Positions 26,896-63,520 of a DNA stretch of 64,000 nucleotides are shown piece after piece (position 1 is the first letter of the stretch; each line of letters opens with the position of its first letter). Source of the stretch: Adhaeribacter pallidiroseus (GTDB taxonomy: Bacteria; Bacteroidota; Bacteroidia; Cytophagales; Hymenobacteraceae); contig NZ_QASA01000001.1 of assembly GCF_003340495.1 (NCBI RefSeq), positions 2,418,001 to 2,482,000 of the forward strand, read 5' to 3'. The translations under genes and the position numbers were made by a program. The notes under the pieces were generated by a model. That model was given only the letters and a program-made list of their open reading frames with translations. It was not told where the DNA came from and ran no database searches.

Positions 26896-27156
26896 AAACA
26901 GGTAGATCAAAAAAGGCAATGGTTCAGGCGCATTGCCTTTCTAATTTAAAAATAATTTGTAACTATTAGGTACACTGTTTTCTTACCTCTCATCATTTGC
27001 CAGAGAATAATCTTAAATATTGACTCTGAAATAATAAAAGGAATATTTTAAAAATTTAACTTAGAATTACTTTTTAAAACAAAGATTCCGGTGATTGTTC
27101 TTTAGTTAACAATTGTTTGCTGAGCGAATGCCATCATAAAAAAATATTACTTCTAA

Positions 27157-42697: not shown

Positions 42698-42980
42698 GTT
42701 GATTGTAAATGAGGCTCCCGGTTTTTTATGCTTGCTAAGAACAATGCAGTAATTGGGTTAGGTCTAAAAAAGCTTTGAAGCCCGTTAAATTTTTAAAATT
42801 TTGCCTTTGTTTAACTCCGGATCAGTAAAATAACCCGTTTACTTTCGGGTAAATCTGTCATTCATCCAGCACGCATTTAGAAAATAACTATTCCGTTCGT
42901 AACTGAATTGAAACTTCTTGAATGATAGATGCTAATGTTTTGTCGAGATATTGATTTAAATAAGCAGCTTCTTAGCGAAA

Positions 42981-43772
42981 CTACTCGCCCGATGGTTTGC
43001 CAATGGTAGCCAATAGGCCCCCATCTACGTACAAGATTTGACCGTTAACAAAATTACTGGCGGCAGAAGCCAGAAATACCACCGCTCCCCCTAATTCATC
43101 GGGCTCGCCCCATTTACCGGCCGGGGTACGGTTAACAATAAATTCGTGAAAAGCATTACCGGCTACCCGCAAGGGTGCCGTTTGGCTGGTAGCAAAGTAA
43201 CCGGGACCAAGGCCGTTTACCTGAATATTATAACGGGCCCATTCGGTAGCCATGTTGCGGGTCAGCATTTTTAAACCACCTTTCGCAGCTGCGTAAGCCC
43301 CTACATTCTGGCGCCCCAATTCACTCATCATGGAGCAAATATTAATAATTTTACCTTGCTGCCGCTCGATCATGCTTTTTACCACCGTTTGCGAAACAAT
43401 AAACGGCGCAGTAAGATCAACATCAATTACTTGCTGCCAATCAATCAAATCCATCTCTACTAAGGGAATGCGCTTTATAATGCCGGCATTATTCACCAAA
43501 ATATCTATAAAGCCGATTTCTTTTTCGATATGGGCCACTAACTCCCGCACTTGCTGCTGGTTGGTAACGTCGCACATAAAACCGTGAACTGTTAGTCCTT
43601 CGGCCTGGTACTCCTGTATAGCCTGGTCTAATTTTTCCCGGGACGAATTGCCGTTAACGATAATAGTAGCCCCGGCTTGTGCTAATGCTTTGGCCATGGC
43701 CATGCCTAAACCATGCGTACCGCCCGTGATCCAGGCCAATTTGCCGGTAAGACTAAATTGTTGTAAAATCAT
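42981..43772 (-). CDS. kduD: 2-deoxy-D-gluconate 3-dehydrogenase / 5-keto-gluconate-type SDR (KduD)
   Basis: 263-residue classical short-chain dehydrogenase. Cofactor motif TGGTHGLG at 16-23, structural NNAG at 94-97, catalytic Ser147, Tyr160 and Lys164 (YAAAK), and the C-terminal FVNGQILYVDGG. KduD reduces 2,5-diketo-3-deoxygluconate to 2-keto-3-deoxygluconate with NADH, following KduI in the breakdown of unsaturated uronates. It starts 16 bases after the stop of kduI on the same strand, so identification rests on the SDR fold plus pairing with kduI; sequence alone would also allow gluconate 5-dehydrogenase. Confidence 0.9.
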   Translation of the reverse strand: MILQQFSLTGKLAWITGGTHGLGMAMAKALAQAGATIIVNGNSSREKLDQAIQEYQAEGLTVHGFMCDVTNQQQVRELVAHIEKEIGFIDILVNNAGIIKRIPLVEMDLIDWQQVIDVDLTAPFIVSQTVVKSMIERQQGKIINICSMMSELGRQNVGAYAAAKGGLKMLTRNMATEWARYNIQVNGLGPGYFATSQTAPLRVAGNAFHEFIVNRTPAGKWGEPDELGGAVVFLASAASNFVNGQILYVDGGLLATIGKPSGE

Positions 43773-43788
43773 GATTATTTCTTAAAAA

Positions 43789-44631
43789 TCAGCGCAAATC
43801 CGGAATGGGGCAAACATCCATATCGCCATAATCCAAGTTTTCGCCGGCCATTCCCCAGATAAAAGTATAGTTTGACGTGCCGGAACCCGCGTGAATGGAC
43901 CAGGGTGGCGAAATAACCGCTTGTTCGTTCTGCATCCAAATATGGCGGGTTTCCTGGGGCTCGCCCATAAAATGGCACACTGCCTGATTCGCGGGAACTT
44001 CAAAGTACAAATACACTTCCATGCGCCGGTCGTGGGTGTGGGCCGGCATCGTATTCCAGACGCTACCGGTTTGCAGTTCGGTCATGCCCATTTGCAACTG
44101 GCACGTTTGAATAACTCCCGCTACCAATAATTTATTAATTGTTCTTTTGTTCGCCGTTTCTAAACTACCCAGTTCTACTATCTCTGCCTGGGCGCGGGTT
44201 ACTTTTTTACTAGGATATAGCTGGTGGGCCGGGGCTGAATTAAGGTAGAATTTAGCCGGAGTTTCGGCCTGGTTGCTGGCAAAAGTTACTTCTTGGGTGC
44301 CTTTGCCTAAGTACAAGGCTTCTTTGTATTGCAGCTCATACGCTACTCCATCGGCGGTTACAGTACCGGTTCCGCCAATATTGATAATCCCCAGTTCCCG
44401 CCTTTTTAAAAAATATTCAACTTTTAGCGGCGGGATGGTTACTAAATTTAAAATTTCATGCACTGGCATGGCCCCACCGGCAATGTAGCGGTCGAACTGC
44501 GTGTAACAGAGTTGAATCTCGTCGGGTTGAAATACTGTTTGGATTAAAAAATTCTCCCGCAGGGCAGCCGTGTCCATACCTTTGGTTTCCCGGGGACTTA
44601 CCGCCTGCCGTAAAGTATAATACGTTTTCAT
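43789..44631 (-). CDS. kduI: 4-deoxy-L-threo-5-hexosulose-uronate ketol-isomerase
   Basis: 280 residues, the usual length of KduI (about 278). Zinc ligands are intact: H198 and H200 in MPAHTHDRR, E205 in MEVYLYF, and H247 in PPWSIHAGSG. The enzyme converts 5-keto-4-deoxyuronate, released from unsaturated galacturonides or glycosaminoglycans, to 2,5-diketo-3-deoxygluconate. KduD downstream performs the next step. The ATG at 44631 gives the normal start MKTYYTLRQAVSP. A promoter-like TACATTTG is found about 59 bases upstream. Confidence 0.96.
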   Translation of the reverse strand: MKTYYTLRQAVSPRETKGMDTAALRENFLIQTVFQPDEIQLCYTQFDRYIAGGAMPVHEILNLVTIPPLKVEYFLKRRELGIINIGGTGTVTADGVAYELQYKEALYLGKGTQEVTFASNQAETPAKFYLNSAPAHQLYPSKKVTRAQAEIVELGSLETANKRTINKLLVAGVIQTCQLQMGMTELQTGSVWNTMPAHTHDRRMEVYLYFEVPANQAVCHFMGEPQETRHIWMQNEQAVISPPWSIHAGSGTSNYTFIWGMAGENLDYGDMDVCPIPDLR

Positions 44632-45633: not shown

Positions 45634-47712
45634 CTACTCCAGCCAAACCTGTTGGGTAAAAGCGCCATTTACGGCGGCATCCCACACTTCTACCCGTACC
45701 CATTTCTTGCCGTTCAGATTAGTTTTAAATTTAAAATTTTGCTTACCAAAAGCTTGCGTATTTTGTAAATCTATCTTTTCGCGGAACACTTGGCTACCAT
45801 CGCCCGAAATAATCTCGGCAAATGTTAAGGGAAAGGTCCAGCTTACATCCAGGGCAATCGTTACTTTACCCTCACCGGGTAATTTCAGGGTTTCGCCCGA
45901 TTTTTTACCATTTACGCTGAAGGTCGGTAAAAGAACTTCACCGGTTGTTACAAAAAACTTACCTTGCTGCATGGCATCCAGAATGGGTTGCCAGCCTTGG
46001 TTATAATTAGGCAGTTTATCGAGTTGTAAGTAATTTACGTTTAAATGGGCGTACATTTCGTTTTCGGGCTCTACGGTGAATAAGTCGGCTTCGGCAATCA
46101 CGTGTTTTTTTAAACCCCAGTTGGCCATGTCATCCATCAAATCCAGCACGCGCTTACTTAACCGGGGTTCCGATAATTCACCGGGTATGTTTTTCCAGGC
46201 GGCTCCCATAAACCGATCTGATTTAAAAAAAGTTTCTTCTTTGTATTTATCCGGGTAGCCCGTGGATCCTTTGGTGCGGGCGTGGGCCGTCCAGGCCAGG
46301 CCATTTTCTACTTCCAGTAACTGCAGCATATCGTTTTTGTCGTTGATACGATACACTTTGCCGTACCGGGAGTCTGCGGTGACAAAGGGCATTTCGGGCT
46401 TCCGCGCCATAATCCAGTACACCGGTTTCGGGAAAAATTGCAGCCAGTGTCCGCCGAAAAATTCGTTGGGTTCTTCGCCGGGTAGCAACAGAAACTTGTC
46501 CGTGGATAAACGTTTGCATTGGTCGAACAACGCCTTTAATTCCTGCAAGCGCGGTTCATCCGGACCTTTCGGGTGGGCGGTATAATGAAACTCGCCCAGG
46601 TGTACGATGTCGATGCCGGTATTTTTAAAAACATCTACAAAGGTAGGCTTCTCTGGTACGGGTTTATTGGCCAGCACTACTTTCATAATAAATTCATTAT
46701 GAAAATGGCTCGACATGGTTTTGTAGCCCGCCAAAGGCTGGTACGTATCGTTGTGGGTAAATTGCTTTACCTGGGTTAAGGTTTGCTCCGGCGATTCGGT
46801 ACTGAGTAAACAGAAAAAATTGAGCCGCTGCTGGGTTTTGGGTGGGGCGTTAAACCAGGGTACATACCGGTCGTCGCCCATTAAATCCTGCCGGATACCT
46901 ATTCCGTAATCCTCTACCAGATTGCGGTAGTTCTTACCCATCCAGGTAAATTTTAAATTAAAAGCTTCGTCGAGCGGGTAAAAATATTGATGCGGCGCCG
47001 GAAAAATAGCTAAGGTCCCATTACGGCCCGATCCCATAATGGTCCGGTATTTTACCCTTTTGGCTTCACTGTTCTGGTTAATGGTTAAGGGGATGGTTTG
47101 TAGTTTATTATCGGTATCCGACCAGGCAATGGTGTTCCAGGTGGGCGCTTTACTTACGAGACCGCCATCGTAGAGAATGGCCGTGGAATCTACTTCAGTA
47201 GCCATTACGGCGGCTACGTTAAACAAAGGGCTGCCATTATATAAAGTTATTTCTAACGCACCTCTAAAAGAGGCAGCTTTTACTTCCGATACCCGGATAA
47301 CCGTACGGGAACCATTGGTTTTTACGCTGACATTGCGCTTATCAAACTCCACCAAATAAGCTTGATGCGGTTTTTTATGCGTTTTATCGAAAAAAATATT
47401 CCAGCCATTCTGCGAAACTAAATCGCGTTTTCCTACCGTTAAAATAAAAGCAGGATCTAGCGCTGTAGCAATTTCTTTCGTTACTCCTCCTTGAGTCAGT
47501 TGAATACTCGCAAATAAAGGAGCATCTTGATTTAGATTAAAAATTATTTTCCCTTTTTGTTTATTCTTTATCGGCCAGCTTACCTCTAATCGGCTGGCCG
47601 ACGTGTTTACCTGCGCCCCACTGTTTTTTTTAAATTCGGCTAAGTCAACGGGGATTTGGGCCCGGGAAATAAAACTGATCAGTAGTAAAATAAGGGAAAA
47701 ACTGTTTTTCAT
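45634..47712 (-). CDS. CehA/McbA-like (PHP-related) secreted protein
   Basis: 692 residues from the ATG at 47712 (MKNSFSLILLLISFISRAQ), a clean signal peptide; an ATG ten codons upstream is less likely. The N-terminal half (about 30-330) is beta-rich. The middle carries metallohydrolase-like elements: MSSHFHNEF (about 345), DIVHLGEFHYT, LLPGEEPNEFFGGHW and GLAWTAHARTKGSTGYP. The end is a beta-sandwich. The order resembles CehA/McbA and PHP phosphoesterase-like proteins, with most metal-binding His and Asp/Glu present (H, H, E, H), although SHFHNE rather than the usual HxH-D start is seen. It follows DUF3823 in the PUL. Could also be a lyase-associated protein of unknown activity. Confidence 0.7.
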   Translation of the reverse strand: MKNSFSLILLLISFISRAQIPVDLAEFKKNSGAQVNTSASRLEVSWPIKNKQKGKIIFNLNQDAPLFASIQLTQGGVTKEIATALDPAFILTVGKRDLVSQNGWNIFFDKTHKKPHQAYLVEFDKRNVSVKTNGSRTVIRVSEVKAASFRGALEITLYNGSPLFNVAAVMATEVDSTAILYDGGLVSKAPTWNTIAWSDTDNKLQTIPLTINQNSEAKRVKYRTIMGSGRNGTLAIFPAPHQYFYPLDEAFNLKFTWMGKNYRNLVEDYGIGIRQDLMGDDRYVPWFNAPPKTQQRLNFFCLLSTESPEQTLTQVKQFTHNDTYQPLAGYKTMSSHFHNEFIMKVVLANKPVPEKPTFVDVFKNTGIDIVHLGEFHYTAHPKGPDEPRLQELKALFDQCKRLSTDKFLLLPGEEPNEFFGGHWLQFFPKPVYWIMARKPEMPFVTADSRYGKVYRINDKNDMLQLLEVENGLAWTAHARTKGSTGYPDKYKEETFFKSDRFMGAAWKNIPGELSEPRLSKRVLDLMDDMANWGLKKHVIAEADLFTVEPENEMYAHLNVNYLQLDKLPNYNQGWQPILDAMQQGKFFVTTGEVLLPTFSVNGKKSGETLKLPGEGKVTIALDVSWTFPLTFAEIISGDGSQVFREKIDLQNTQAFGKQNFKFKTNLNGKKWVRVEVWDAAVNGAFTQQVWLE

Positions 47713-47852
47713 AGCTGATAGCGCGTAAAGACGAAAATACATATCCTACCGAATATTTATGGGTACTCTGACCTTTTTTTAAACTCGTAAGAATTAAAAC
47801 TGAGGTAGAGCCAACCGATTAGTTAAGCAAGTACTAAGGGTTAATACAAACA

Positions 47853-48663: not shown

Positions 48664-50532
48664 TTATTGATTCGGGTTCCGGATGATCAACGGATTATTG
48701 CTGATAATTCCGTCACTTATCCGGGAATAGTAGTTGCCTAACCGGAAGTTATGGCTTTCCGTAACGTTGTTCAGGTTCACTCTCCGGAATACCCATTTGT
48801 TATGATTAGCAGTGCCGGGATTGTAGATTTTGTAGGGATACAAAGCAAAAACCCGGGTACTGGGAGCCGTGGCCTTGCTGGGGTCTGTGGTTAAGTCGGT
48901 ATTAGAACCGTTCCAGACCAGGTGCGCAATACGCCAGCGTTTGTAATCCCAAAGCTCGTGATTCTCAAAAGCCAACTCTACTTTCCGCTCGTGTACAATC
49001 CGGTCGAAGGTAATATCAGTGGAGGTTAACGGAATATTTAATCCGGCCCGGGCCCGTACCTGGTTCATGTAGGTTACGGCTACATCCGGCTGGTTTAACT
49101 CAAAAGCAGCTTCGGCGGCATTTAACAAAACCTCGGCGTAGCGGTAGCGCACATTCCATACTTCGCTTTGCGTACCAATCTGGCCGGAACCTAAAGCCGG
49201 GTCGTTGTGCTTGCGGATATAAAAGCCGCTCTCGGCCGAACCGTTACGGCCTTGAATGGGTCCGGAAGCACCCACCACTTGCACCGACGGACCACTGGGC
49301 TCCGGCACGTTTTTGAATTGGCCGAGTTGGTCACCGGATAAAATACTGTTATTAGCTAAAAGTAAACCAGCGAAAATATCAATGGGACGACCTTTAAATC
49401 GGGAACCGGGCACCAATACTGTACCGCGTAACCGGGCATCGCGGCCGGCAAATAAATCTTCAGGGTTATCGTACACAATATCCTCGTTACCTTCCTTAAT
49501 GGCCAATGGCGCAAAAGTATTATCGAGTTTTTCAAAAGATTGCACCAGGTTGAGGGACGGATTTAAAAAACCGCCGACGTCGCCTTCTTCGGTAATACCG
49601 CGGGGCTGATTTTCCAGTGCAAAATTATGCACTTTCCCGCTCCGTAATTTATAATCCTCTACAAAGATGACTTCCGGGTTACCTGCTTTGTCCAGAATAA
49701 TATTCGCGAAATTTTCGGATAAATCCGGCGTTTTCTGATACAAGGAATACAGGCCGGAGTTAATTAATTCCTGGGCAGCAGCCAATGCAGTCTGGTAATA
49801 ACCTGTGGCCAAGGTAGCCGGTATACCAATTTCGCCGTTGGGTAAAGATACGGTGGGGGTAGTAGCGCCGTACTTCGCAATGGAACCCGCATACAAAGCT
49901 GCCCGGGCTTTGGTGGCAACCGCCAAGCCGTAAGTAGCCCGGCTCTTTTCGTTGGCATCCCGGGGCAAAATAACTTTAATTTCTTCCATTTCCTTAATCA
50001 CAAAGTCGTAAATCTCCGACTCTTTGGCGCGTGGTTTCCGCAGGTAGCCCGCATCGCCGCTGTAATCGTAGGTGAGTGATTCCAAAACCAATGGTACCCC
50101 CCCCATGCGTTTCACGAGTTCAAAGTAAGCGTTGGCTCTTAAGTAACGAGCTTCGGCCGCAAACCGGGCTTTATCGGCTTCTGTTAAGGTTTCTGAAGTG
50201 TTTAATCTTTCTAAAAAAAGATTGATATCCCGGATATAGCCGTAATCCCAGTAATTCCATTCGTCGAAACTATAATCCCGGAAACGGTGGCGGTTATAAT
50301 CGCGGGAAGCAAATGCTTCGTCGAAGGCAGCGTAATTACCAAAATTACCTGGCTCTTGATAATCCGGGATGCGGTTGTACAGGTTGGTAATGGCCGATAA
50401 TACCAGCCGGGGATCGTTGTACACTTCATCTACTAACAAGATATTAGTAGGTTTTATATCCAGAAATTTATCATCGTTACACCCGGCATTCAGGGCAAGT
50501 GCCCCGATCAGAGCTATACTAAATTTTTTCAT
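48664..50532 (-). CDS. SusD/RagB outer-membrane lipoprotein
   Basis: 622 residues from the ATG at 50532 (MKKFSIALIGALALNAGC). Upstream ATGs reach 50580, but they would overlap SusC and precede the signal peptide. Lipobox NAGC, then CNDDKFLDIKPTNI, the canonical SusD start with the FLD motif. TPR-like helices (about 90-160, ADKARFAAEARYLRANAYFELVKRMGGVPLV) and a C-terminal YAEVLLNAAEAAFELN...MNQVRARAGL and VHERKVELAFENHELWDYKRW are family hallmarks. It caps the SusC pore and captures oligosaccharide at the cell surface. The gap to SusC is 25 bases. Confidence 0.95.
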   Translation of the reverse strand: MKKFSIALIGALALNAGCNDDKFLDIKPTNILLVDEVYNDPRLVLSAITNLYNRIPDYQEPGNFGNYAAFDEAFASRDYNRHRFRDYSFDEWNYWDYGYIRDINLFLERLNTSETLTEADKARFAAEARYLRANAYFELVKRMGGVPLVLESLTYDYSGDAGYLRKPRAKESEIYDFVIKEMEEIKVILPRDANEKSRATYGLAVATKARAALYAGSIAKYGATTPTVSLPNGEIGIPATLATGYYQTALAAAQELINSGLYSLYQKTPDLSENFANIILDKAGNPEVIFVEDYKLRSGKVHNFALENQPRGITEEGDVGGFLNPSLNLVQSFEKLDNTFAPLAIKEGNEDIVYDNPEDLFAGRDARLRGTVLVPGSRFKGRPIDIFAGLLLANNSILSGDQLGQFKNVPEPSGPSVQVVGASGPIQGRNGSAESGFYIRKHNDPALGSGQIGTQSEVWNVRYRYAEVLLNAAEAAFELNQPDVAVTYMNQVRARAGLNIPLTSTDITFDRIVHERKVELAFENHELWDYKRWRIAHLVWNGSNTDLTTDPSKATAPSTRVFALYPYKIYNPGTANHNKWVFRRVNLNNVTESHNFRLGNYYSRISDGIISNNPLIIRNPNQ

Positions 50533-50557
50533 ATTATATTGCTGATTCATCATACCT

Positions 50558-53500
50558 CTATAAGCTGAGATTAAAACCAAAGTTTACCAGTACATTCTGG
50601 GGGTATTGTAAGCCATTATCGTCGGTAACTTCCGGATCAGTGCCGTATTTCTTCACATTATCGAGCGAGAACAAGTTGTAGGTATTGGCGAACAGGCGCA
50701 CCTTTTGTAGTTTAGCTTTGGTGGTTAAAGCTTGCGGTAAGGTATAGCCAATTTCAAAAGTCCGCATCCGGAAATATTTTACGTTGGTTAAGTATATATT
50801 TGAGTTTTTGTTGTAATTGTTATGATTGGCATCGTTGAAGCGCAAAGCCGGAGTACTCCCGGGAATCCACTCACTATCGGGGTTTAATGGATCGGCGCGG
50901 TGCCAACGGTCATCGAACATAAAACGGGGAACATTACCGGTGTTTTGAAATGGCCATCTTACTTCGTAGTTGCGGTTATAAGCATAACCACCCCCGCCCG
51001 AAAAATCAGCGTTCACATCAAAGCCATTATATCGAAGTGAAAAATTAAGCCCGCCGCTGTAAATAGGTGTGCTGCCAGTACCATACCCAATGGGTCTTTC
51101 ATCGCGGCTGTTAATAATCCCATCGCCGTTTTCATCTTTATAAATATAGTCCCCGGGAATCATGGTGCGGTTGCCCTGGCCATCGTTATTGATGGGGTAA
51201 TTATTTATTTCTTCCTGCGATTGGAACTGACCGGTTACATGATAACCCCAAAAGATATTGTTCCAGCGGTCTTGCCGCGAGTTGCGGTATTCATCTAAGG
51301 AATTACTGAAGGGAGCGCGGTAATCGGCAATAAACCGGTTGCGGCCATACAAGAAGTTCGCTCCAACCGAAAAATTAACTGCTCCTACTGTACCGTTATA
51401 AGTTATCGAGGCATCGCTCCCCACCACGGCGTCTTCATTCAAATTTTCCGGTGGCAACACGTACCCTATTTCGCTCGGTACAAATACGTCAAATCTTTCC
51501 TGTACTAAACCGGTCCGGTTCCGACGGAAGTAATCGATGCTACCAGTAACCTTATTGCTTAAAATAGAAAAGTCCACCCCCGCATCGAACGTTTTACTGG
51601 TAAACCAGGATACCCGATCTCTCACCGGTCCACGGTCTTGAGCCGCTACTACCGGATTACCGGACATTATACCAATACCTGCGGGATAATTGTAGCCGAG
51701 TAAATAATCAAAAGGGTCCAGATCAACATCCCGGTCAACTCTCCGGTCGTAATAACGTACGCCATCATCACCCAACTCGCCGTAGGAAGCCCGAATTTTT
51801 AAATCGCTCACGAAGGAGCCGTCGCCGGTTATGGATTTAAAAAATCCTTCTTCGGATATCCGCCAACCGACCGAAGCGGAAGGGAAGAAGCCGTACCGCT
51901 TATCCGGAGTAAATTTCCAGGAAGCATCGCGGCGGCCAGCTAGTTCCAGAAAGTACTTATCGGCGTAGTTATAATTAAACCGACCTACGTAACCTAAGCG
52001 GGCTTGGGTAAAATCCAAATCATTATACGTATCAATATCGGCGAATTGCAGAATAGGCAACACGTTGGTCTTGGGCACCGAATGCACAAATACTTCCCGT
52101 TCGCGTCTTTCAATCCGCTCGGTCAGCAACAAGCCGCCCACGGTGTGTTTACCAAAGGTATTATTATAGTTTAATTGAAACTGACCTACTGTTTCGTTTA
52201 TTTTACGGGTAACGCGTTCCCGGTAGGGGTTTTGGCTGCCTCCGGTTTTCAGGTATTCCTCCGTATCGGGTTTGTAGGTATAGGTATCGTAGGTATACTC
52301 AAAAATATCCTGCAAACGGTCGGCATTATAATACGAGTACAAACCTTTGGCAACTAAGCCTTTAATAGGCGTTTGGTATTCGCCGGTAACCTGCGGGGTT
52401 ACAATCGTCCAATCTTCGCGGAAAAAACCAGCATTTTTAAAATTTAAGTAGCCCCAGTTCGATGCCGGATTACTGATGTTATTAATATAGTTCGGGTTAT
52501 CATTAGCGAAAGGCCGTTCGGTAGGTCGGTTCCGGAAAAGCGCAAAACGCGGGGCAAAATAATCATCGCCGCCGGGTACGCCCGGATTTTCGCGGGTTTC
52601 GATGCGACCGTTAATACCTAAACCCACTTTCAGATTATTCGAAATTTTAGCGTCGATGTTGGATTGTAAATTGGTACGGGCAAATGTAAATTCCCGGCCT
52701 AATACTGAGTTTTGGTCTAGACGGGTAGCCGAGATGTAGTAATTAATTTTATCGGAACCACCCGTAGCGTTGATGTTGATATTGGTTTGGGGAGAATTCT
52801 TCTTGATAATGTATTTGCGCCAATCAAAATTCTGGTAGCCATATTCGGTGCCGGCCCGGTATTTATCTAATTCCGATTGGGTGGTACTGGTAACGTTGTC
52901 CCGGTTAACCTCGGCTTCGGCTTTACCTAAGGCCCATTCGTACGCATTTACGGTTTCGGGAAAGCGGCTCCAGTTCTGAAAGCCGTAATAAGCATCAACA
53001 TTTATCGTACTTTTCTGGCCATTCGCACCTCTTTTGGTAGTAACCAGTACCACTCCGTTCGCGGCCCGGGAACCGTAAATAGCCGCCGAGGCATCTTTTA
53101 AAACCGATATTGTTTCGATATCGTTGGGCGATAAGTTATTAAAATGCCCGGCATCTTTTTGTACGCCATCAATTACGAACAACGGGTTCCCCCCCATGTT
53201 CCGGATTTGAATGGCGGCACCCGCTCCCGGCCGGCCTTCGGCTTGCCGGAAGGAAACCCCCGGAATTTTACCGGCTAACAAACCACTTACGGTACTGGCG
53301 TGCACCCGGCTTAAATCTTTACTAGTAACTGCGGCCACTGCCCCCGTGATGGATTCCCGTTTTTGGGTACCATACCCTACTACCACTACTTCTTCCAAGG
53401 CTTTGTTGTCTTCGGCTAAAGTAACGTTGATAGTGGTACGGTTGGCAATAGCTACTTCTTGGGTAAGGTAACCAATAAAAGAAACTACGAGGGCACCATT

Positions 53501-53770
53501 AGTCTGGTCAGCTGGAATGCTCATGGTAAATTTTCCACCGCCATCGGTAGTAGTGCCGTTAGTAGTACCTTTAATTAATACCGTTACTCCGGGTAATGTT
53601 TCGCCCTTACCACTGGTTACAGTACCCGATACCGTTTGCTGCGCAAACGCAGCCAAGTGGCTGAATAAAAGAAAGGTAACCAGAAGCAGCAACTGGTTGG
53701 GGTTTGGGAAAAACCAGGCGTTCTGGTGGGTAAAAGAAGGAGGAGACTTTTTACGTAACAGGTTTTCCAT
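50558..53770 (-). CDS. SusC/RagA TonB-dependent outer-membrane transporter
   Basis: 1070 residues. A signal peptide (about 25-44) is followed by a carboxypeptidase-D-regulatory-like domain (about 46-130: TVSGTVTSGKGETLPGVTVLIKG), a plug with VVVGYGTQKRESITGAV and DGVQKDAG (about 130-240), and a 22-strand barrel ending NVLVNFGFNLSL. The SusC imports oligosaccharides across the outer membrane with energy from TonB; SusD follows in the operon. The likely LacI operator lies about 370 bases upstream at 54144-54155, consistent with negative control. The substrate is not readable, but the surrounding GH127 and Kdu genes point to arabinose-bearing pectin. Confidence 0.96.
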   Translation of the reverse strand: MENLLRKKSPPSFTHQNAWFFPNPNQLLLLVTFLLFSHLAAFAQQTVSGTVTSGKGETLPGVTVLIKGTTNGTTTDGGGKFTMSIPADQTNGALVVSFIGYLTQEVAIANRTTINVTLAEDNKALEEVVVVGYGTQKRESITGAVAAVTSKDLSRVHASTVSGLLAGKIPGVSFRQAEGRPGAGAAIQIRNMGGNPLFVIDGVQKDAGHFNNLSPNDIETISVLKDASAAIYGSRAANGVVLVTTKRGANGQKSTINVDAYYGFQNWSRFPETVNAYEWALGKAEAEVNRDNVTSTTQSELDKYRAGTEYGYQNFDWRKYIIKKNSPQTNININATGGSDKINYYISATRLDQNSVLGREFTFARTNLQSNIDAKISNNLKVGLGINGRIETRENPGVPGGDDYFAPRFALFRNRPTERPFANDNPNYINNISNPASNWGYLNFKNAGFFREDWTIVTPQVTGEYQTPIKGLVAKGLYSYYNADRLQDIFEYTYDTYTYKPDTEEYLKTGGSQNPYRERVTRKINETVGQFQLNYNNTFGKHTVGGLLLTERIERREREVFVHSVPKTNVLPILQFADIDTYNDLDFTQARLGYVGRFNYNYADKYFLELAGRRDASWKFTPDKRYGFFPSASVGWRISEEGFFKSITGDGSFVSDLKIRASYGELGDDGVRYYDRRVDRDVDLDPFDYLLGYNYPAGIGIMSGNPVVAAQDRGPVRDRVSWFTSKTFDAGVDFSILSNKVTGSIDYFRRNRTGLVQERFDVFVPSEIGYVLPPENLNEDAVVGSDASITYNGTVGAVNFSVGANFLYGRNRFIADYRAPFSNSLDEYRNSRQDRWNNIFWGYHVTGQFQSQEEINNYPINNDGQGNRTMIPGDYIYKDENGDGIINSRDERPIGYGTGSTPIYSGGLNFSLRYNGFDVNADFSGGGGYAYNRNYEVRWPFQNTGNVPRFMFDDRWHRADPLNPDSEWIPGSTPALRFNDANHNNYNKNSNIYLTNVKYFRMRTFEIGYTLPQALTTKAKLQKVRLFANTYNLFSLDNVKKYGTDPEVTDDNGLQYPQNVLVNFGFNLSL

Positions 53771-54276: not shown

Positions 54277-55179
54277 CTAGATATGCATGCTTATACCGGG
54301 CGTGATATGGTTTTGGTTGTTTCTTGTTTTATGAAACAAAACCTCTAAAAATTGCAAGCCTTCTTGCGCCAGTTCATCCGGACTATTGGCTAAGGGCCGC
54401 CAAATGCAGGCGGCCTTGGCGAGTTCTTTGGAAGGTGCCCCGAAGGTTTCGATCACGATGGCACCCTCGTAGCCGATATCCACCAGGGCTTCTTTAATGC
54501 CTATCCAATCTAAGTGGCCGGTGCCGGGGGTGCCCCGGTCGCTTTCGTTGCCTTGCACGTGGCACAGGTAGTCTTTGCCAATGGCCCGGATGGTAGCCGG
54601 AATGTTTTTTTCCTCGATGTTGCTGTGAAAAGTATCCAGGGAAATTTTAACGTGCGAATGCCCTACTTCCTGCACCAGCGCTAAAGCCTGGTCAGCCGTG
54701 TTGATCATGTCGGTTTCAAAGCGATTTAGCGGCTCTACTCCTACCACCACGTTATAATCCGCGGCCATTTGCCCTACGTCTTTCAAGTTTTGGACGCACC
54801 AAGCCCGCTCTTGTTTTTTTTGCTCCGGGCCGACGTACCGGGTTTTGCCTACCGCCGAGTAAACCGGACCGGTAAATACCGGGCTATCCAGAGCAGCGGC
54901 AATTTTAATACAATCCTGTATGTATTGTTTGCCGTTTTTCCGGAAGGCGGCGTTGTCACTGGAAATATCCCGGTCCGGGCCAAAGGCGCCGCTAATGGTT
55001 ATTTTTATTTCTAGCGCCTGCGCCAACTGCTTTAAATAAACCCAATCAACTAAATCGGCTTGCTCTACCGCTACTTCTAAAATAGCGTAACCCATTTTTT
55101 TTACTTTGGCGAGTAAGTGAAAATCTGCCGTTTGAAAAGGCGAAACCCAAATAAAAGTACTGGCACCCAAAAGAATCAT
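54277..55179 (-). CDS. Sugar phosphate isomerase/epimerase family TIM barrel
   Basis: 300 residues of the xylose-isomerase-like TIM barrel (AP endonuclease 2 superfamily). Metal-site motifs are in the order of D-tagatose/D-psicose 3-epimerases: VGVEPLNRFE (Glu near 149), SLDTFHSNIEE (Asp and His near 182), HVQGNESDRGTPGTGHLDW (His near 208, with an Arg nearby) and AIVIETF (Glu near 245). It would epimerise a ketose or act on a 3-keto-sugar. It follows the Gfo/Idh gene after 55 bases on the same strand, the same pairing found in inositol and 3-keto-glycoside loci. Exact substrate unknown. Confidence 0.87.
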   Translation of the reverse strand: MILLGASTFIWVSPFQTADFHLLAKVKKMGYAILEVAVEQADLVDWVYLKQLAQALEIKITISGAFGPDRDISSDNAAFRKNGKQYIQDCIKIAAALDSPVFTGPVYSAVGKTRYVGPEQKKQERAWCVQNLKDVGQMAADYNVVVGVEPLNRFETDMINTADQALALVQEVGHSHVKISLDTFHSNIEEKNIPATIRAIGKDYLCHVQGNESDRGTPGTGHLDWIGIKEALVDIGYEGAIVIETFGAPSKELAKAACIWRPLANSPDELAQEGLQFLEVLFHKTRNNQNHITPGISMHI

Positions 55180-55234: not shown

Positions 55235-56380
55235 TTACGCTTCTACCTGAGCCGGCACTTCTTGTAATTCAAAATCCGGGATGGCAATGCGCTTGCCATT
55301 GTTCATGGCTGATTCGTGGGCGCAAATACCGGCACAGGTGTAATTAGCGGCCAAAGCCGCATCTACCGCCGAATCCCGGCCCTCGATGATGGCCGCCACA
55401 AACTCCTGCACTAAATGCGGGTGCGAACCACCGTGACCGGCTCCCTGCAAAAAGGAAACGTGATTAGGGTCGTCTATTTTTTCGCGTTTGGTAAAGTGCT
55501 TAATGGGTTCAATTAGTAAATCGTCGGTATCAGGCACATTAATGCGGCGCGCGTTTTCGCCGCCGTCAAAAATCACGTGTTCTTCATCCTGTAATTGTTC
55601 CCACTCAAACGACATTTTGGTGCCGTATACGTCGTAGCTTTCGCGGTATTGGCGTACTACGTCAAACAAAGAACGGGTTGCTTCGGCCACTACATCGGAG
55701 TTTTTTAAGGTAAAGGTGGCGGTTTCCACGGCAAATGGCGAATTATACCGGCTGGCTAAATCTTCGCTTAACCGGCCGGAGCCGTGGCAAACCACGCTTT
55801 CGGCCTTGGTGTTGTTGATGCGGAGCAAAGGCGAAATGGCGTGCGTACCGTTTAACATGGGAGGGTAACCTTTCCAGTATTCGGCCCAGCCTTCCATGCT
55901 CATATCCTGAATGTGGGAACCGCGCACAAATTGAATCCTGCCTAGCTGGCCACTTTCGGCTAATTCCAGGCCATACAAAAACTCGCGGGTGTATAAAGCG
56001 GTTTCCATCATCATGTACACTTTGCCCGCTTTTCTTTTGGCTTCCACGATGGCTTGGCAGTCTTCTACGGTCATGGCCATAGGGATCGTACAGGCCGTAT
56101 GTTTATTGGCGTTCAGCGAAGCCAAAGTCATTTTGGCGTGTTCCGGTACCGGCGTTACAATATGAATAGCGTCCACATCTTCGCGCAATGGCACGTCCTC
56201 AAAGTTCTCGAAGCATAAATCTCTATCCAGATTAAACTTAGCGGCCAGTTCCTCGATCGTTTGGCGGTTGCGGGTGCAAATACCCACGGCTTTAATGTTG
56301 GGGTGACTTTGATAAATAGGAATAAATTCTTTGCCAAAGCCCATGCCCACGATAACGACGGTAATTTGTTTCTGATCCAT
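55235..56380 (-). CDS. Gfo/Idh/MocA family oxidoreductase, atypical active-site lysine
   Basis: 381 residues with an N-terminal Rossmann fold (ITVVIVGMGFGKEFIP, 6-21) and a C-terminal Gfo/Idh domain. The family motif EKP, whose lysine is catalytic in many members, reads TIP at 98-100 (CTIPMAMTVEDC), so the usual catalytic Lys is Ile99. Downstream features such as GRIQFVRGSHIQD and GGSHPHLVQEFVAAI remain typical. It may have changed chemistry or be a binding protein. It is flanked by the epimerase downstream and GH127 upstream, all on the minus strand. Confidence 0.87.
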   Translation of the reverse strand: MDQKQITVVIVGMGFGKEFIPIYQSHPNIKAVGICTRNRQTIEELAAKFNLDRDLCFENFEDVPLREDVDAIHIVTPVPEHAKMTLASLNANKHTACTIPMAMTVEDCQAIVEAKRKAGKVYMMMETALYTREFLYGLELAESGQLGRIQFVRGSHIQDMSMEGWAEYWKGYPPMLNGTHAISPLLRINNTKAESVVCHGSGRLSEDLASRYNSPFAVETATFTLKNSDVVAEATRSLFDVVRQYRESYDVYGTKMSFEWEQLQDEEHVIFDGGENARRINVPDTDDLLIEPIKHFTKREKIDDPNHVSFLQGAGHGGSHPHLVQEFVAAIIEGRDSAVDAALAANYTCAGICAHESAMNNGKRIAIPDFELQEVPAQVEA

Positions 56381-56866: not shown

Positions 56867-58933
56867 TTAGTGCACCTCCGGAAATTGCGCAATCCGTAAA
56901 GTGGTACAGCCGTACGGAATTAAAGTAACTTCTTCCACGTCTTTACTAGTTTCCAAATCCGAGGTGATGCTGTAAGGCATGGGGCCAGCCATGTCGTTGT
57001 AAAGCTGCCACGACGGAATTTTCTTTGCTTTCGCCTTGATCTGGATAGGCGCATTAGCGACGCTCCATGGGAAAACGGCTACTTGCTCTTTGGTGCTGAT
57101 GGTAAAATTTTCGGTTAATTTATTATCAGCTACGTGCAGCAAGCCATAATTCCAGGGTGTGGTGGGGCGAACTTCGATGTATTGCTGGCCGTACGCTACC
57201 GGGTCTTTGTCGTTCTTTACGGTTTTGCGATCTTCGCCTACTTTTAAAGCATAGGTAATAGGGCCACGTTCGATGGCTACCGCGTTTTCGTACCAGGTAC
57301 TTCTAAATAAGTGCATGGGCAATTGCAGTTGCACCACATCCCCCGATTTCCAAGCGCGGTTAACCACTACTATTTGGTTGCCCGCCGCTTCTTGCCAAAT
57401 TTTGCCATTAATGGTAATAGTGGCTTTTTGGCACCAGGCCGGCACGCGCAAGTGGAACGGAAAGTTTACAGATTTTACTTTTTTAGGGATAGTTAAGGTA
57501 AATTTGATCGCTTCGCCAAATGGGTAATTGGTTTCTTCAGTAAATTTTACTTCGGTGCCGTTAGCTACTTGGGCTTTTACTTCGCAGGGCGAATAGACTA
57601 AAGCGGCTAAGCCATTATCGGGTGTAGCGTACCACAGATTCTGGGTAAACTTGGGCCAGCCCTGGTGCATGTTAGAAGTACAGCACGGATAGCCGGTTAG
57701 CAAGCCATAACAAGCATCGGTGCCGCCGTGGTTTTGGTCGAAGTTGCGGATGTGCCGGGTAAGCATTACCTGGTTGGCCTGCTGAAAATACTGGCGGGCC
57801 ATGTAATCCGGGGTAGTTTGGGTGGGCAGCGCATTAAAAGCAATTTTCTCCAGGTGATCGGCCAAGCTTACCTGCCCGGTAATGCCCAGCATACTTTCCA
57901 AAGAAAACATCATTTCTACGGCGCTGCACAATTCCGAACCTTGGGTAGGATTGTTGCCGTGCAGAGCTTCGTCGCCGCCGTACAAACCTTGCGCCTGCCC
58001 GTTAAATTTCCGGATATCGGCTAATCCTTTGTTGGTAGCATCCAGGTACTTGGGTTCGGGATGCTGCTGATAATAAATAAGTGGTTCTTTTAAACCTTGC
58101 GCTAAATTCACGCAATGAATGCTACCCGGGGTAGCCAGCATTTCGCCTTTCAAGAAGGCTCCGGTATAGTCAAAAGTTTGCTGATGAATGAGGTTGGCCA
58201 AGTCCAGCAGAAAGGCATCCTGGGTGATGTTGTACAGCCAATAAACAACCATTAAATTATCGCCGCCCCGGTAACGGGCCCAAAATGTCCAGTGGTCGAG
58301 GGGCGTTTTGGGTAACTCTTTTAACTGGTATTTAAAATAATTGGTCATGAGGGTGATTACCCGTTTGTCGCCGGTAGCGGAGTAATATTGCTTCAAGATT
58401 TTGAGCATCACCATTTTGGGCCACCAGTCGCGGCTATTATCGCGTTGAACCCCCGGTTCCGACCCATAGTCGGTTTTTGGCCCAAAATGCCCTTCGGTAT
58501 CCTGACTTTGGAGCGCCCATTCTATCCAGGGTTTGGTTTTGGCAATTAATGCTTTATCCTCCAGAATATAAGCCAATGGCAATAGACCGTCGAGCCAGTA
58601 AGGACCGCGTTCCCACTGGTCGCCGTCGCCACCCAACCAGCCGTTGCGTTTGCCCATTACTAACGGATACAACTGATCTAATTGGCCCGTAGCTCCGTTT
58701 TTTTGCCGTACCAGCATTTCTTGGAGCCAACCCTGCGGTTTTATGGCGCCCAAGGGAAGTTCCTGGTACGGATTGGTTCGTAGCGGGGCTTTGTTGCCGC
58801 CGTAAAAGGTATTAACTCCTACCGTCGGGTGCTGACTACGTGCTTTTTCTTCCCAAGTTTGTTTTTGGGCCGAAGTTATTTCCTCATTACCTAAAAAGCA
58901 GAACGCGAAAATTAAAATCAGATTTTTTTTCAT
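56867..58933 (-). CDS. GH127 beta-L-arabinofuranosidase (DUF1680 family)
   Basis: 688 residues from the ATG at 58933 (MKKNLILIFAFCFL), which begins a signal peptide; an ATG ten codons upstream is in frame but precedes it. The (alpha/alpha) barrel contains the Zn-dependent cysteine active site of GH127: E344 and C346 (SELCSAVE, numbered from 58963) with C427 and C428 (YPCCTSNMHQGWPKF), the pattern of HypBA1 E338/C340/C417/C418. The nucleophile is expected to be C427. A C-terminal beta-sandwich follows (about 480-690). It should release terminal beta-L-arabinofuranose in the periplasm. Could also be the related GH146 type. Confidence 0.93.
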   Translation of the reverse strand: MKKNLILIFAFCFLGNEEITSAQKQTWEEKARSQHPTVGVNTFYGGNKAPLRTNPYQELPLGAIKPQGWLQEMLVRQKNGATGQLDQLYPLVMGKRNGWLGGDGDQWERGPYWLDGLLPLAYILEDKALIAKTKPWIEWALQSQDTEGHFGPKTDYGSEPGVQRDNSRDWWPKMVMLKILKQYYSATGDKRVITLMTNYFKYQLKELPKTPLDHWTFWARYRGGDNLMVVYWLYNITQDAFLLDLANLIHQQTFDYTGAFLKGEMLATPGSIHCVNLAQGLKEPLIYYQQHPEPKYLDATNKGLADIRKFNGQAQGLYGGDEALHGNNPTQGSELCSAVEMMFSLESMLGITGQVSLADHLEKIAFNALPTQTTPDYMARQYFQQANQVMLTRHIRNFDQNHGGTDACYGLLTGYPCCTSNMHQGWPKFTQNLWYATPDNGLAALVYSPCEVKAQVANGTEVKFTEETNYPFGEAIKFTLTIPKKVKSVNFPFHLRVPAWCQKATITINGKIWQEAAGNQIVVVNRAWKSGDVVQLQLPMHLFRSTWYENAVAIERGPITYALKVGEDRKTVKNDKDPVAYGQQYIEVRPTTPWNYGLLHVADNKLTENFTISTKEQVAVFPWSVANAPIQIKAKAKKIPSWQLYNDMAGPMPYSITSDLETSKDVEEVTLIPYGCTTLRIAQFPEVH

Positions 58934-59010
58934 TTTTGCAGTTTCAGAATAGGAATCACCCATTTTTTAAAAAATCAAAAACCAACCAACCTTCCGGCGT
59001 ATTTACCTAA

Positions 59011-59900: not shown

Positions 59901-62900
59901 TTAATCTACCACTTTTAAGATACCGTTCATGATACGCCAGTGCCCCGGGAAAGTACAGACAAAAGGATAATCGCCGGGTTGGGTGGGCGCCGTAAACTGC
60001 AAGGTTACTTCTTCGCCGGAGTTTACCAGTTTAGTAGCGTGCAGTACTTCCGGTATTTGCGGCACGTAGCTTTTTTCGGCGCCGTTCGGGTCGCGGGCTA
60101 TTACATCGGCCGCGGCGCCTACTTTCTGCATCATACCTTTCTGAATAATTACCAGGTTGTGCTGCATGTTATCGGGGTTTAATAAGTTAATAACCACCTT
60201 CTGACCGGCTTTCACGGTGAGTAGCTTTTTATCGAACTGCATCACATTTTCGACTACCCGCAAATTAATGGTTATGGTTTCGTTATTTTGGCTGGGAAGT
60301 GCCACATTTTTTACCGGCGTGGTTCTCACCACTGGTTTACCCGCAATCGGTTGGGTAGACACGCTTTTACCAGCCGGTCTCAGTTCCAGAGTAGCATTTT
60401 GCATATCCCCGATTAACCGGAAAGGACCGTCGTATTTGCCCACTCTTTCGGTATTTTCCACGTCCTGCGACACCCGTACCGTGGTGGTGAGGGGTTGTTT
60501 GAATAAGGAAGGCGCTTTGCCTTGCGCCACCGTTTGGTCGTTTACCGCCACAATCATTTCGCCGCCGCGGAGTAGTTGCGCTTTGAAATCAAATTTTTCC
60601 GGTACGGGTTCTTGGGAAGTGGCCGTATAACTCTTGCCATTTTGATTTACTAACAAATGCAGTTTGCCGTTCTGGATAAATAAACCATAGCCGTTTTCCT
60701 TGCCGCCCTGCGCTACCAACATGCCTTCCAGGTCTCGTTTTCCTTTACTAACCGAACCTTTCATGGTAATTTCTTTATTACTCACATCCGGCGGGAAAAG
60801 CAGGTTGCCGCGGCGTGGTAAGGCGTAACTTTCCTCACTCAAAGCTTTAACGATGCGGGTACTTAAGTCATCCGCATGATTATTTTCACCGTTAGGGGTG
60901 CTGGCCGCGGCCATAAAACCATCCTGGTGCGTGATTGCGGCAGCAAAAGCGGCGCGAGATAGCCATTCGTCCTGACCGTTTTCGGGTTTTAAAGTAGCCG
61001 CGTACACCAGTTTACCTAATTCCTCCGAAGCTGGTAATTCGGCGAGGGCCAGCAGCGTATTTAGCCGCACATTCAAATTGGGGTCGTTGAGTAAGCTGGT
61101 TTTTTTAAAAATATCGACGGCTTGCGCATTTTTAGGCAATACCGCTAAAGCGGCTTTGCGCACGCCGGCTGCCGGGTGGTTCAAGGCTTTAATGGCTACC
61201 TGCATGGCTTCGGAGTTGGTACCATCCAAAGCGCCTAGCCCTTGTAAGGTCCAGAGGGCGTGTACCGCCGGACTGTTCAGGCCAATTTCATCTACTTTTT
61301 GGTTATTTATTATTTGGTAAAGACCGGGTAGAGCAGCTTTGTCTTTGGCTTCCACTAACAACCGCTGGGCGGTCATCCGCCAGAACATATTGTCATTTTC
61401 GAGGGCTGCTAATAAAGCCGGGGTATTGTTTTGGCTCAGTTTTAAGGGTGAATACGGCTTGGCTTTTTTGTACACCACCCGATATACGCGGCCATGGTTA
61501 ATATCGCGCAATGGGCTGCTAAAAGCGTTACCTTGCCCCATGGGCTGTTCGGTAAAAGGCAAAACCATTTCGGAAGGCGCTTGCGCGGGTACAAACACAT
61601 TGTGCTGAATGATAAAATTATACCAATCGGCAACCCAAACGGCCCCGTCCGGACCAACTTCGGCGTGCACCGGCCCGAACCATTCGTCGGAACTGGCCAT
61701 TAAATTCCAGCCATCTTTTTCGGCAAAACCGGCTCCTTTCGGTTCAATTACTGCGTTGTGCAGCAAGCGCACGGTGGGTTCACAAACCAAGGCAATCCGG
61801 TTCCAGTATTCTTTTGGGAAGCTGCGGGCGGTGTACAAATGATGGCCCGCCGCCGATGTAAACCCGCCTACCACATCTACCTGGCGTAAGTTGGGCGTTA
61901 AAGAATGCGCATCGTAATGGCCGTCAATTTTCTGCACCGGTAATATGCCGGTGGGGCCCGATTTGTCCGATGAGGCCGTTAAAGCGGGCAAAGCTCTTTG
62001 CGTATACCGGGCCGGCATGGAGTAAAAAGCGCTATGGGTGTTATTGGCCGTGGAAATAAATACGTTATTGTCCTCCGAAAAGCCGAGGCCCCAGGTATTG
62101 TTGCTGGTATTGGCTAAGAACTCCATACCGGTTCCATCGGGATTAACGTGGTACACACCGGTCCGGAAACTTAAATTTTTGCTGTCTTTGGTAGTACCAT
62201 TAAATCCGGAACCCACTACGCCCCAGATTTTATTATCGAAACCGTATTGTAAGTTAGAAGGGCCAAAATGGGTATCGTTCTTTTCCCAGCCGGTCATAAT
62301 ATTTTCGCGCACATCGGCTTTATCGTCGCCGTTAGTATCTTTTAAAAAAACAAAGTAAGGCGCCATGGAAACGACTACCCCCCGTTGGCAAACACCATAC
62401 TGGTCGGGATATTCAGCTTATCGGCAAAAACCGTGAACTTATCGGCTTTGCCGTCGTTGTTGGTATCTTCACAGATTTTAATGCGGTCGTTGGCGGCGCC
62501 GTCGGTTTCCAGGAAAGTATTCGGATAATCCACGGATTCTACAATCCACAAGCGGCCGCGCTCGTCCCACGACATGGCAATCGGGTTGGTAATATCCGGC
62601 TCGGCAGCAAATAATTGTACCTCAAAATCTACGGGTACCTGGGTTAATTTCAGGGATTGTTCCGGCGTAAGCGCTTCCTGCATTTTAGGTACTAGGTGGC
62701 GCTTGGTATAATCCGAAATAGCGATGTTGGAAGAAGCATAAATATCTACCTGGGGGGCATTAAACTGGGCAATTTGCTTTTGCACTTTGTCGCCCACGGC
62801 CCATAACACGCCATTGCTCACTAATTTTTGAAAACCAGGTTTCGTCCAGGTGCTGTCGTCGTGGCCGTAAGCGGTGTAGAATACCCGGCCTTTGCCTTGG

Positions 62901-63520
62901 TGGCGCACCCAGGTATACGGTTCGCGCGTGCTGCCCTCTACCCTTTCCATTAAAACCGTTTTGTCTTTGTTCAAATTTTGGTGCACGTAAGTTTCATCGG
63001 TAGTAGAAAATTCCGTAAGGCCTTGTGTAACCGGGTGCTTTTTGTTAACAATAGCCGCGGTAAAAGCGCCGTTGCCATGCGATTTAAACTGGCCCCCGAT
63101 AGTGTTTAGGTACCACGGGGAGTTTTTGAAGCAACCGGTTGCGCAATGCAACGGAATTAAACCTTTCCCTCCTTCTACAAAACCTTGCAACGCTTTTTCC
63201 TGGTCGGTAGCCAGGGTATCGTAATTGGCATAAATTACCAAGGCATCGTATTTACTTAAATTTTCGGGATTTAAATCTTTTAAATTAGTAGTGTAAGTGA
63301 GGTTGAGGCCGCTCTTAAACAAAGTAATGGCCAGCCAAGGGGCGTATTTACCGGAATCGTGGTGTTTGCTGTTGTGGCCCAAAAACAATATTTCGCCTCG
63401 TCGGGGACCTTCCTTACCGGATTTATGGCTGCTGGTTATAGCGGAGGTGGTTCCAGCTTTTTTGGCGCACCCGGAAAATAGCCAAGCAGTTAAAAAAACG
63501 AGATAAACTAATTTCTTCAT
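59901..63520 (-). pseudogene. ThuA/beta-propeller dehydrogenase/HEAT/azurin-like fusion protein, frameshifted
   Basis: With one base added, 1206 residues from the ATG at 63520. Order: lipobox Cys18 (LFSGC); ThuA domain (about 40-260); membrane-bound-dehydrogenase-type propeller (TIGR02604-like, about 290-700, with DTNNDGKADKFTVFAD and EVGPDGAVWVADWYNF); HEAT-type helices (about 700-870); a ConA-like sandwich (about 890-1070); and an azurin-like cupredoxin with Cu ligands H1121 (NMQHNL), C1189, H1194 and M1198 (FVCTFPGHWRIM), spaced C-H 5 and H-M 4 exactly as in azurin. At 62378-62383 there are six C; seven restore ANGGVVVSM across the junction between the two open readings (63520-62375 and 62366-59901). 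The span (3620) is one short of a codon multiple. Likely a surface sugar dehydrogenase with a built-in copper electron carrier. Confidence 0.88.
63131..63142. promoter_or_regulatory. Third GCAACCGGTTGC palindrome, inside the ThuA fusion gene
   Basis: Same 12-base palindrome as the two intergenic sites, about 380-390 bases inside the ThuA fusion reading frame. It codes for AlaThrGlyCys in the motif HCATGCF, so it could be partly fixed by coding. An auxiliary looping operator is possible. Confidence 0.4.

Follow-up and report, generated by a model that had tools for sequence, protein, structure and literature searches.

A ThuA-propeller-azurin design in Adhaeribacter pallidiroseus and its possible role in the redox breakdown of glycosides

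The stretch of DNA analyzed here (the window; 64,000 nucleotides of the Adhaeribacter pallidiroseus genome, contig NZ_QASA01000001.1, positions 2,418,001 to 2,482,000) carries, at window positions 59901 to 63520 on the minus strand, the coding sequence of a multidomain protein that combines a ThuA domain, a propeller, and an azurin-like copper domain. An earlier note, made from the letters of the window, had described these domains as parts of one protein. All three were recovered in that order on the minus strand with Pfam and NCBIfam models, but a single protein had to be rejected for the assembly as given, because the span consists of two open reading frames (ORFs) in different frames and contains no single reading frame. 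The features of the span are as follows.

62375..63520, minus strand: ORF1, 381 amino acids, with a lipoprotein-type signal, ThuA, and the first part of the propeller; it ends at the frame break
62798..63382, minus strand: ThuA domain (PF06283) in ORF1 (Pfam, 4.6e-42; 145.1 bits against a cut-off of 33.4)
62378..62665, minus strand: N-terminal part of the propeller (DUF7133 positions 2-95) in ORF1 (Pfam, 2.6e-37)
62375..62383, minus strand: run of G and stop codon, the site of the frame break
59901..62366, minus strand: ORF2, 821 amino acids from the first ATG, with the remainder of the propeller, HEAT, laminin-G-like, and azurin domains
61467..62387, minus strand: remainder of the propeller (DUF7133 positions 93-384; Pfam, 1.4e-74), with conserved NDTH and NNTWG motifs
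61005..61199, minus strand: HEAT_2, just below the Pfam cut-off (26.3 against 27.7 bits); a helical stretch in the model of a relative from A. rhizoryzae
60324..60896 (approximate), minus strand: laminin-G-like beta sandwich, placed by analogy with a fold match in the model of the A. rhizoryzae relative
59910..60269, minus strand: type 1 copper domain of the azurin/auracyanin type (PF00127) in ORF2 (Pfam, 4.4e-13)

The domain order is ThuA, six-bladed propeller (the fold of soluble glucose dehydrogenase, sGDH, and of the AA12 enzymes; models DUF7133 and TIGR02604), HEAT, laminin-G-like, and azurin. The NCBIfam model TIGR02604 scored 143.4 bits in ORF2, against a cut-off of 122.2, and 93.7 bits in ORF1, the score being divided because the frame break splits the propeller. 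The laminin-G-like domain had a BLAST match in only three loci of the phylum survey (L147 to L149). No CxxCH heme motif was found in ORF1 or ORF2. The N terminus of ORF1, judged by eye, is a lipoprotein-type signal (MKKLVYLVFLTAWLFSGC), and the encoded protein is probably an exported Bacteroidota lipoprotein, with a predicted location in the periplasm. The HEAT match, the laminin-G-like domain, and the signal were absent from the earlier note.

Six G in a row immediately precede the stop codon of ORF1. Both sides of the break lie within one ORF in all 104 related rows of the alignment that reach it (these rows comprise 100 distinct sequences, exclude both entries of the window copy, and include the paralogue from the own genome and some repeats from a single organism). 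The closest relative comes from another genome of the genus, G003, and shares 91% and 85% identity on the two sides of the break; the rates of nonsynonymous and synonymous substitution (dN/dS) are 0.058/0.96 for ORF1 and 0.083/1.01 for ORF2, which points to strong purifying selection on both. A second gene in the window is broken in a similar way.

10091-13656, minus strand: second broken gene, with a paralogue at 14288-18208 that carries Big_5, Cep192_D4, Por_Secre_tail, and a weak GSDH match

This paralogue matches the broken gene in two frames, and the break falls in a run of G near position 11552 that is one base shorter than the corresponding stretch of the paralogue. Two breaks of like kind in one window suggest a technical cause. 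A one-base homopolymer sequencing error is the likeliest account of the break in the ThuA-propeller gene, and we consider it quite probable. Nevertheless, the break could be real, in which case the window copy would be dead and an intact paralogue 2.9 Mb away would remain. That the organism itself carries the one-base break, as a recent pseudogene, appears quite unlikely to us. The in-frame stop is shown by the assembly, the paralogue at G000:C1:5424446-5426830 is intact and has epimerase-like and Gfo/Idh-like neighbors, and the substitution rates, being averaged since the split from G003, are compatible with a very recent event. Two further results weigh against a sequencing error: the ThuA-propeller gene is the only multiframe case among 14 ORFs matched in the syntenic stretch of G003 (two of the 14 are antisense), and G/C runs of at least six bases are not scarcer in the window (7 in 64 kb, versus 4 in 77 kb of G003), so errors do not abound in the assembly. 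Against a pseudogene stand the purifying selection on both sides of the break and the technical cause suggested by the other break, likewise one base short in a run of G. Programmed frameshifting at the run of G, which would join ORF1 and ORF2, was rejected as extremely improbable: the two ORFs abut at the run and their offset fits a -1 slip, but the relatives read through in a single frame and the run is not conserved among them.

Sequence comparison and structure prediction give good grounds for assigning the C-terminal domain to the type 1 copper domains of the azurin/auracyanin type; as such, it may bind copper. The exact azurin ligand spacing described in the earlier note, H followed by C-x4-H-x3-M, is present and is far beyond chance; on the minus strand of the window the first His lies at 60159-60161, the Cys at 59955-59957, the second His at 59940-59942, and the Met at 59928-59930. 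Not one of these four ligands varies among 100 distinct domains (that of the window among them), and a Gln precedes the first His in 95 of the 100, as it does in three aligned solved auracyanins. Among solved structures, the closest relatives of the domain are auracyanins and azurins. A model of the window domain, made from an alignment with 41 relatives, reached a mean predicted local distance difference test (pLDDT) score of 93.2; it matched auracyanin A (2aan) with a Z score of 20.5 and 1.2 Å over 119 residues and matched 6kol with a target-normalized template modeling (TM) score of 0.86. The domain type, the invariant ligand set, and the confident model all favor the type 1 copper center that had been proposed. 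The NCBIfam azurin equivalog TIGR02695 stayed below its cut-off (50.3 versus 105.1 bits), and "auracyanin-like" is a name no less apt than "azurin."

The same design is seen repeatedly in soil Bacteroidota. Relatives were found in 17 of 150 genomes in a family-wide search at E <= 1e-30 and in 33 of 395 genomes in a phylum-wide search at E <= 1e-60 (own genome counted in both cases; few candidates were scored per genome). A scan of named genomes yielded 307 relatives; the 80 best were retained, with hosts that we take to be Bacteroidota; from these 80 named loci, 49 (alignment A1) and 41 (alignment A2) were picked for spread. The ThuA-propeller-azurin architecture, for which the earlier note had suggested a search, is that of 110 of 136 distinct propellers. 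The 26 rows of other architecture comprise 10 ThuA-propeller proteins, 7 propeller-cytochrome c proteins (5 of them paralogues from the own genome that were added as an outgroup), 5 proteins with the order propeller-azurin-ThuA, 2 propellers alone, 1 ThuA-propeller-cytochrome c protein, and the broken window copy, with tails assigned by BLAST with the window domains and by the CxxCH pattern.

Where azurin is not fused, it is usually close by: an azurin gene immediately adjoins 9 of the 10 ThuA-propeller proteins, a label that needs four changes in a 64-row tree (locus L094 included). In one locus (L163, 1186-4125, minus strand), a ThuA-DUF7133-HEAT protein carries a C-terminal cytochrome c, recognized by Pfam, where its sister proteins carry azurin, and the tree places this form among azurin forms with support of 95/83. 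The permuted proteins (L171, L172, L173, L174, and L175) form one clade with support of 100/100; in L172 ThuA is confirmed by Pfam and azurin, below Pfam significance, is recognized by BLAST and the ligand motif only, and in L171 the ThuA match is weak. The tree, from which azurin-bearing near-copies were thinned and in which the outgroup branches are long, gives no order for fusion versus separation. That the carrier occurs separate, fused, or exchanged is good evidence for joint action of the modules and for an electron carrier as the conserved element. The earlier note had proposed oxidation coupled to copper electron transfer; the link between copper domain and propeller is upheld indirectly, with azurin fused or adjoining and once replaced by cytochrome c, but a standard quinoprotein dehydrogenase as the source of the electrons is not, as discussed below. 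It might be argued that the azurin domain serves copper handling (storage, delivery, or resistance) and takes no electrons from the propeller. A copper site alone gives no purpose, but the replacement of azurin by cytochrome c in the same position and the setting among sugar genes make copper handling very unlikely.

Of the 17 DUF7133 genes read in the own genome (one under the family cut-off), 11 encode CxxCH, another 3 have the copper motif, and the remaining 3 lack both. The azurin-like domains found in this genome with the window query are likewise three, all in propeller proteins. Another cluster of the genome (L177, G000:C1:4345000-4364900) encodes two large proteins with CxxCH (1138 and 1164 amino acids), each with a ThuA match, the former consisting by Pfam of ThuA, GSDH, PKD, cytochrome c, and CBM6; a 743-amino-acid propeller-azurin protein without a ThuA match lies in the same cluster. 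The window itself holds a cytochrome-tailed counterpart at 23785-26919 (minus strand), a protein of 1044 amino acids with GSDH, PKD, cytochrome c, and CBM6.

The genes downstream of the ThuA-propeller-azurin span are given below; counts of relatives refer to the 80 named loci, for which 6 kb was sought on each side, some loci being cut by contig ends.

59011..59784, minus strand: second, stand-alone ThuA gene (relative in 62 of 80 loci)
55235..56380, minus strand: Gfo/Idh/MocA dehydrogenase (relative in 73 of 80)
54277..55179, minus strand: TIM-barrel sugar epimerase/isomerase (relative in 69 of 80)
48664..53770, minus strand: SusD and SusC-like (TonB plug) genes for outer-membrane glycan uptake

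Relatives of SusD and SusC were present in 48 and 32 of the loci, respectively. The best solved match of the Gfo/Idh protein was DgpA (8.4e-16), and the best matches of the TIM-barrel protein include D-psicose 3-epimerase (9.5e-41). According to the available part of one report, DgpABC oxidizes puerarin to 3''-oxo-puerarin (PMC10539306). The DgpA and 3-epimerase matches point to keto-sugar chemistry and name no substrate. The intact paralogue in the own genome also adjoins TIM-barrel-like and Gfo/Idh-like genes, as judged by eye from their N termini. The protein had been called sugar handling in the earlier note, and the SusC/SusD, Gfo/Idh, and epimerase neighbors support a sugar-linked role.

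Other genes in this part of the window were also observed. A GH127-like gene (56867-58963, minus strand) lies between the second ThuA gene and the Gfo/Idh gene; it has no DNA match in the syntenic stretch of G003, and 1 of the 80 named loci holds a relative. DUF4861, SDR, and KduI/IolB genes stand in a row at 41483-44631 (minus strand), a hint of uronate breakdown, and a 702-amino-acid protein without a Pfam match, encoded at 45634-47742 (minus strand), has a relative in 27 of the 80 loci.

Our best reading, which we hold with about even confidence, is that the periplasmic lipoprotein oxidizes, and perhaps cleaves, a glycoside and that the electrons pass to copper. A glycoside or keto-sugar would be brought in by SusC/SusD and oxidized at the propeller, and the ThuA module would act on the oxidized sugar. 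Electrons would pass to the azurin copper and then to the respiratory chain, and the product would enter the cytoplasm and may there be turned into a normal sugar by the Gfo/Idh dehydrogenase and the epimerase.

The fold of the propeller was assessed in a model of the mature A. rhizoryzae relative (L041, 1193 amino acids; pLDDT 81.0, predicted TM score 0.80) rather than in the window's broken copy. The propeller of this model matched a sugar dehydrogenase dependent on pyrroloquinoline quinone (PQQ) (3a9g) with a Z score of 26.0, the Trichoderma reesei AA12 enzyme (6i1q) with 25.2, and the Coprinopsis cinerea pyranose dehydrogenase (CcPDH; 6jt5) with 23.6. Other six-bladed propellers, such as diisopropylfluorophosphatase (DFPase), reached Z scores of about 21, and the fold alone is thus insufficient to show activity. 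Foldseek also aligned the full-length model with clostridial neurotoxins and multicopper oxidases, but these rows were set aside: where the match was long, the root mean square deviation was about 15-27 Å and the TM score 0.07-0.18.

The residues of the propeller were paired with those of known enzymes through a profile alignment that included Escherichia coli YliI and three GSDH proteins of the own genome. By this alignment, the catalytic residue His144 of sGDH corresponds to a position that is His in every one of the 127 ThuA/azurin-clade propellers. In sGDH and AA12 enzymes, an Arg/Asx dyad stands at the PQQ ketones, as stated in the accessible part of PMC6881810. The Asx of this dyad is Asn in all 127 propellers, and the position of the Arg that contacts PQQ is occupied by Asn, again in 127 of 127. 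A smaller alignment agrees in these assignments (49 of 49); strict text patterns retrieved the Asn motif in 77 and the His motif in 114 of the 127, the misses being due to the patterns, as the 127-row alignment indicates. As far as aligned residues can tell, the propeller does not bind its cofactor through the residues customary for PQQ. A standard PQQ enzyme is not supported, although the pairing comes from a weak profile alignment and not from coordinates; nor, by the same token, is the "propeller dehydrogenase" of the earlier note, taken as the standard quinoprotein type. Cytochrome-tailed paralogues in the own genome likewise have no clear Arg-Asn pair, so the azurin clade does not stand alone in this.

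The replaced Arg is one of several points that weigh against oxidation at the propeller with transfer of electrons to copper. Parts of the second half of the L041 propeller were modeled with a pLDDT of only about 50-70, and the profile alignment behind the residue pairing is itself weak (hhalign local probability 70.7, E value 3.8e-5, 13% identity). No azurin was found in the 11.6-kb locus L094. No PqqE above the cut-off was found in the own genome, and none was found in the control genomes either; this is weak evidence, because E. coli, which has no PQQ synthesis, has a PQQ enzyme, and PQQ can come from outside (PMC6881810). Lastly, the only wet-lab result that we found on the propeller family is hydrolysis, not oxidation: purified Lac161_ORF7, with TIGR02604, HEAT_2, and cytochrome c domains, hydrolyzed lactose with a Km of 1.8 mM in the part of PMC5342196 that was available.

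The lactose hydrolysis keeps alive a different explanation, that these proteins are mainly glycoside-cleaving enzymes and that the redox tail is auxiliary (for example, resetting a cofactor within each catalytic cycle), with no net flow of electrons to respiration. Lac161_ORF7, with its cytochrome c tail, shares the propeller family and HEAT with the proteins considered here, the PQQ Arg is absent from these, and ThuA is kept with 127 of 136 propellers (in the window copy, in the other ORF) and in two different positions. However, a redox carrier is fused or adjoining in nearly all of the clade proteins read, which fits a required outlet for electrons, and the accessible text of PMC5342196 describes no ThuA or azurin for Lac161_ORF7. 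We regard this explanation as rather unlikely; a cycle in which the glycoside is first oxidized and then cleaved would also fit the lactose result. A further and unlikely proposal is a class of periplasmic "respiratory glycosidases," in which a propeller lacking the customary PQQ site would oxidize the glycoside, the fused ThuA would cleave the oxidized sugar, and a fused, exchangeable carrier, azurin or cytochrome c, would take the electrons. If true, a single lipoprotein would couple glycan breakdown to respiration, and the class would be one not previously described. For oxidation of a glycoside with electron transfer to copper, the invariant copper domain, visible by spectroscopy if copper is bound, would give a direct readout of electron movement by the propeller.

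Among the open-licence PMC papers listed, the titles and openings of abstracts gave no description of the ThuA-propeller-azurin architecture, which seems uncharacterized; the words "ThuA" and "azurin" both occur in the part of PMC10694973 that was available. Its modules can be compared with known systems one by one. The copper domain shares with auracyanin and azurin the fold, the ligand set, and the C-x4-H-x3-M loop but differs from both in being tethered to an enzyme. The Gln before the first His ligand is common to the window domain and the aligned solved auracyanins, whereas azurin has Gly at this position. At the other end of the protein, the N-terminal domain of the L041 model has the fold of solved ThuA-like proteins (4jqs, 4e5v, and 1t0b; Z scores of 22.7, 23.4, and 23.0), structures that are titled "putative" or "ThuA-like" and from which the window ThuA differs by its fusion. 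ThuA is known for activity on keto-disaccharides.

With sGDH, aldose sugar dehydrogenase, and the CAZy AA12 enzymes (T. reesei AA12 and CcPDH), the propeller has in common the six-bladed fold and the equivalent of the catalytic His, but the dyad Arg is Asn in the ThuA/azurin clade and sequence similarity is at the profile level only. CcPDH is likewise modular, and AA12 enzymes are joined to an AA8 domain, according to the excerpt available (PMC6881810); the window protein differs from them in having a copper carrier in place of the cytochrome domain and in the added ThuA. The closest comparison is with the TIGR02604 proteins, called "PVC-type heme-binding CxxCH protein" (DUF7133), such as Lac161_ORF7, in which the same propeller model is recognized and in which HEAT repeats and then, at the C terminus, an electron carrier come after it. 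From these the window protein differs by azurin in place of the CxxCH cytochrome c and by the N-terminal ThuA. DUF7133/TIGR02604 proteins are numerous in the A. pallidiroseus genome, and a single wet-lab report was found on the family. The carrier varies naturally, between azurin and cytochrome c as well as between a fused and a free azurin; this argues for redox activity of these enzymes and so bears on how the cytochrome-tailed relatives work, including the one reported as a beta-galactosidase. Each module is known, and the combination is a TIGR02604 design with azurin replacing cytochrome c and ThuA added.

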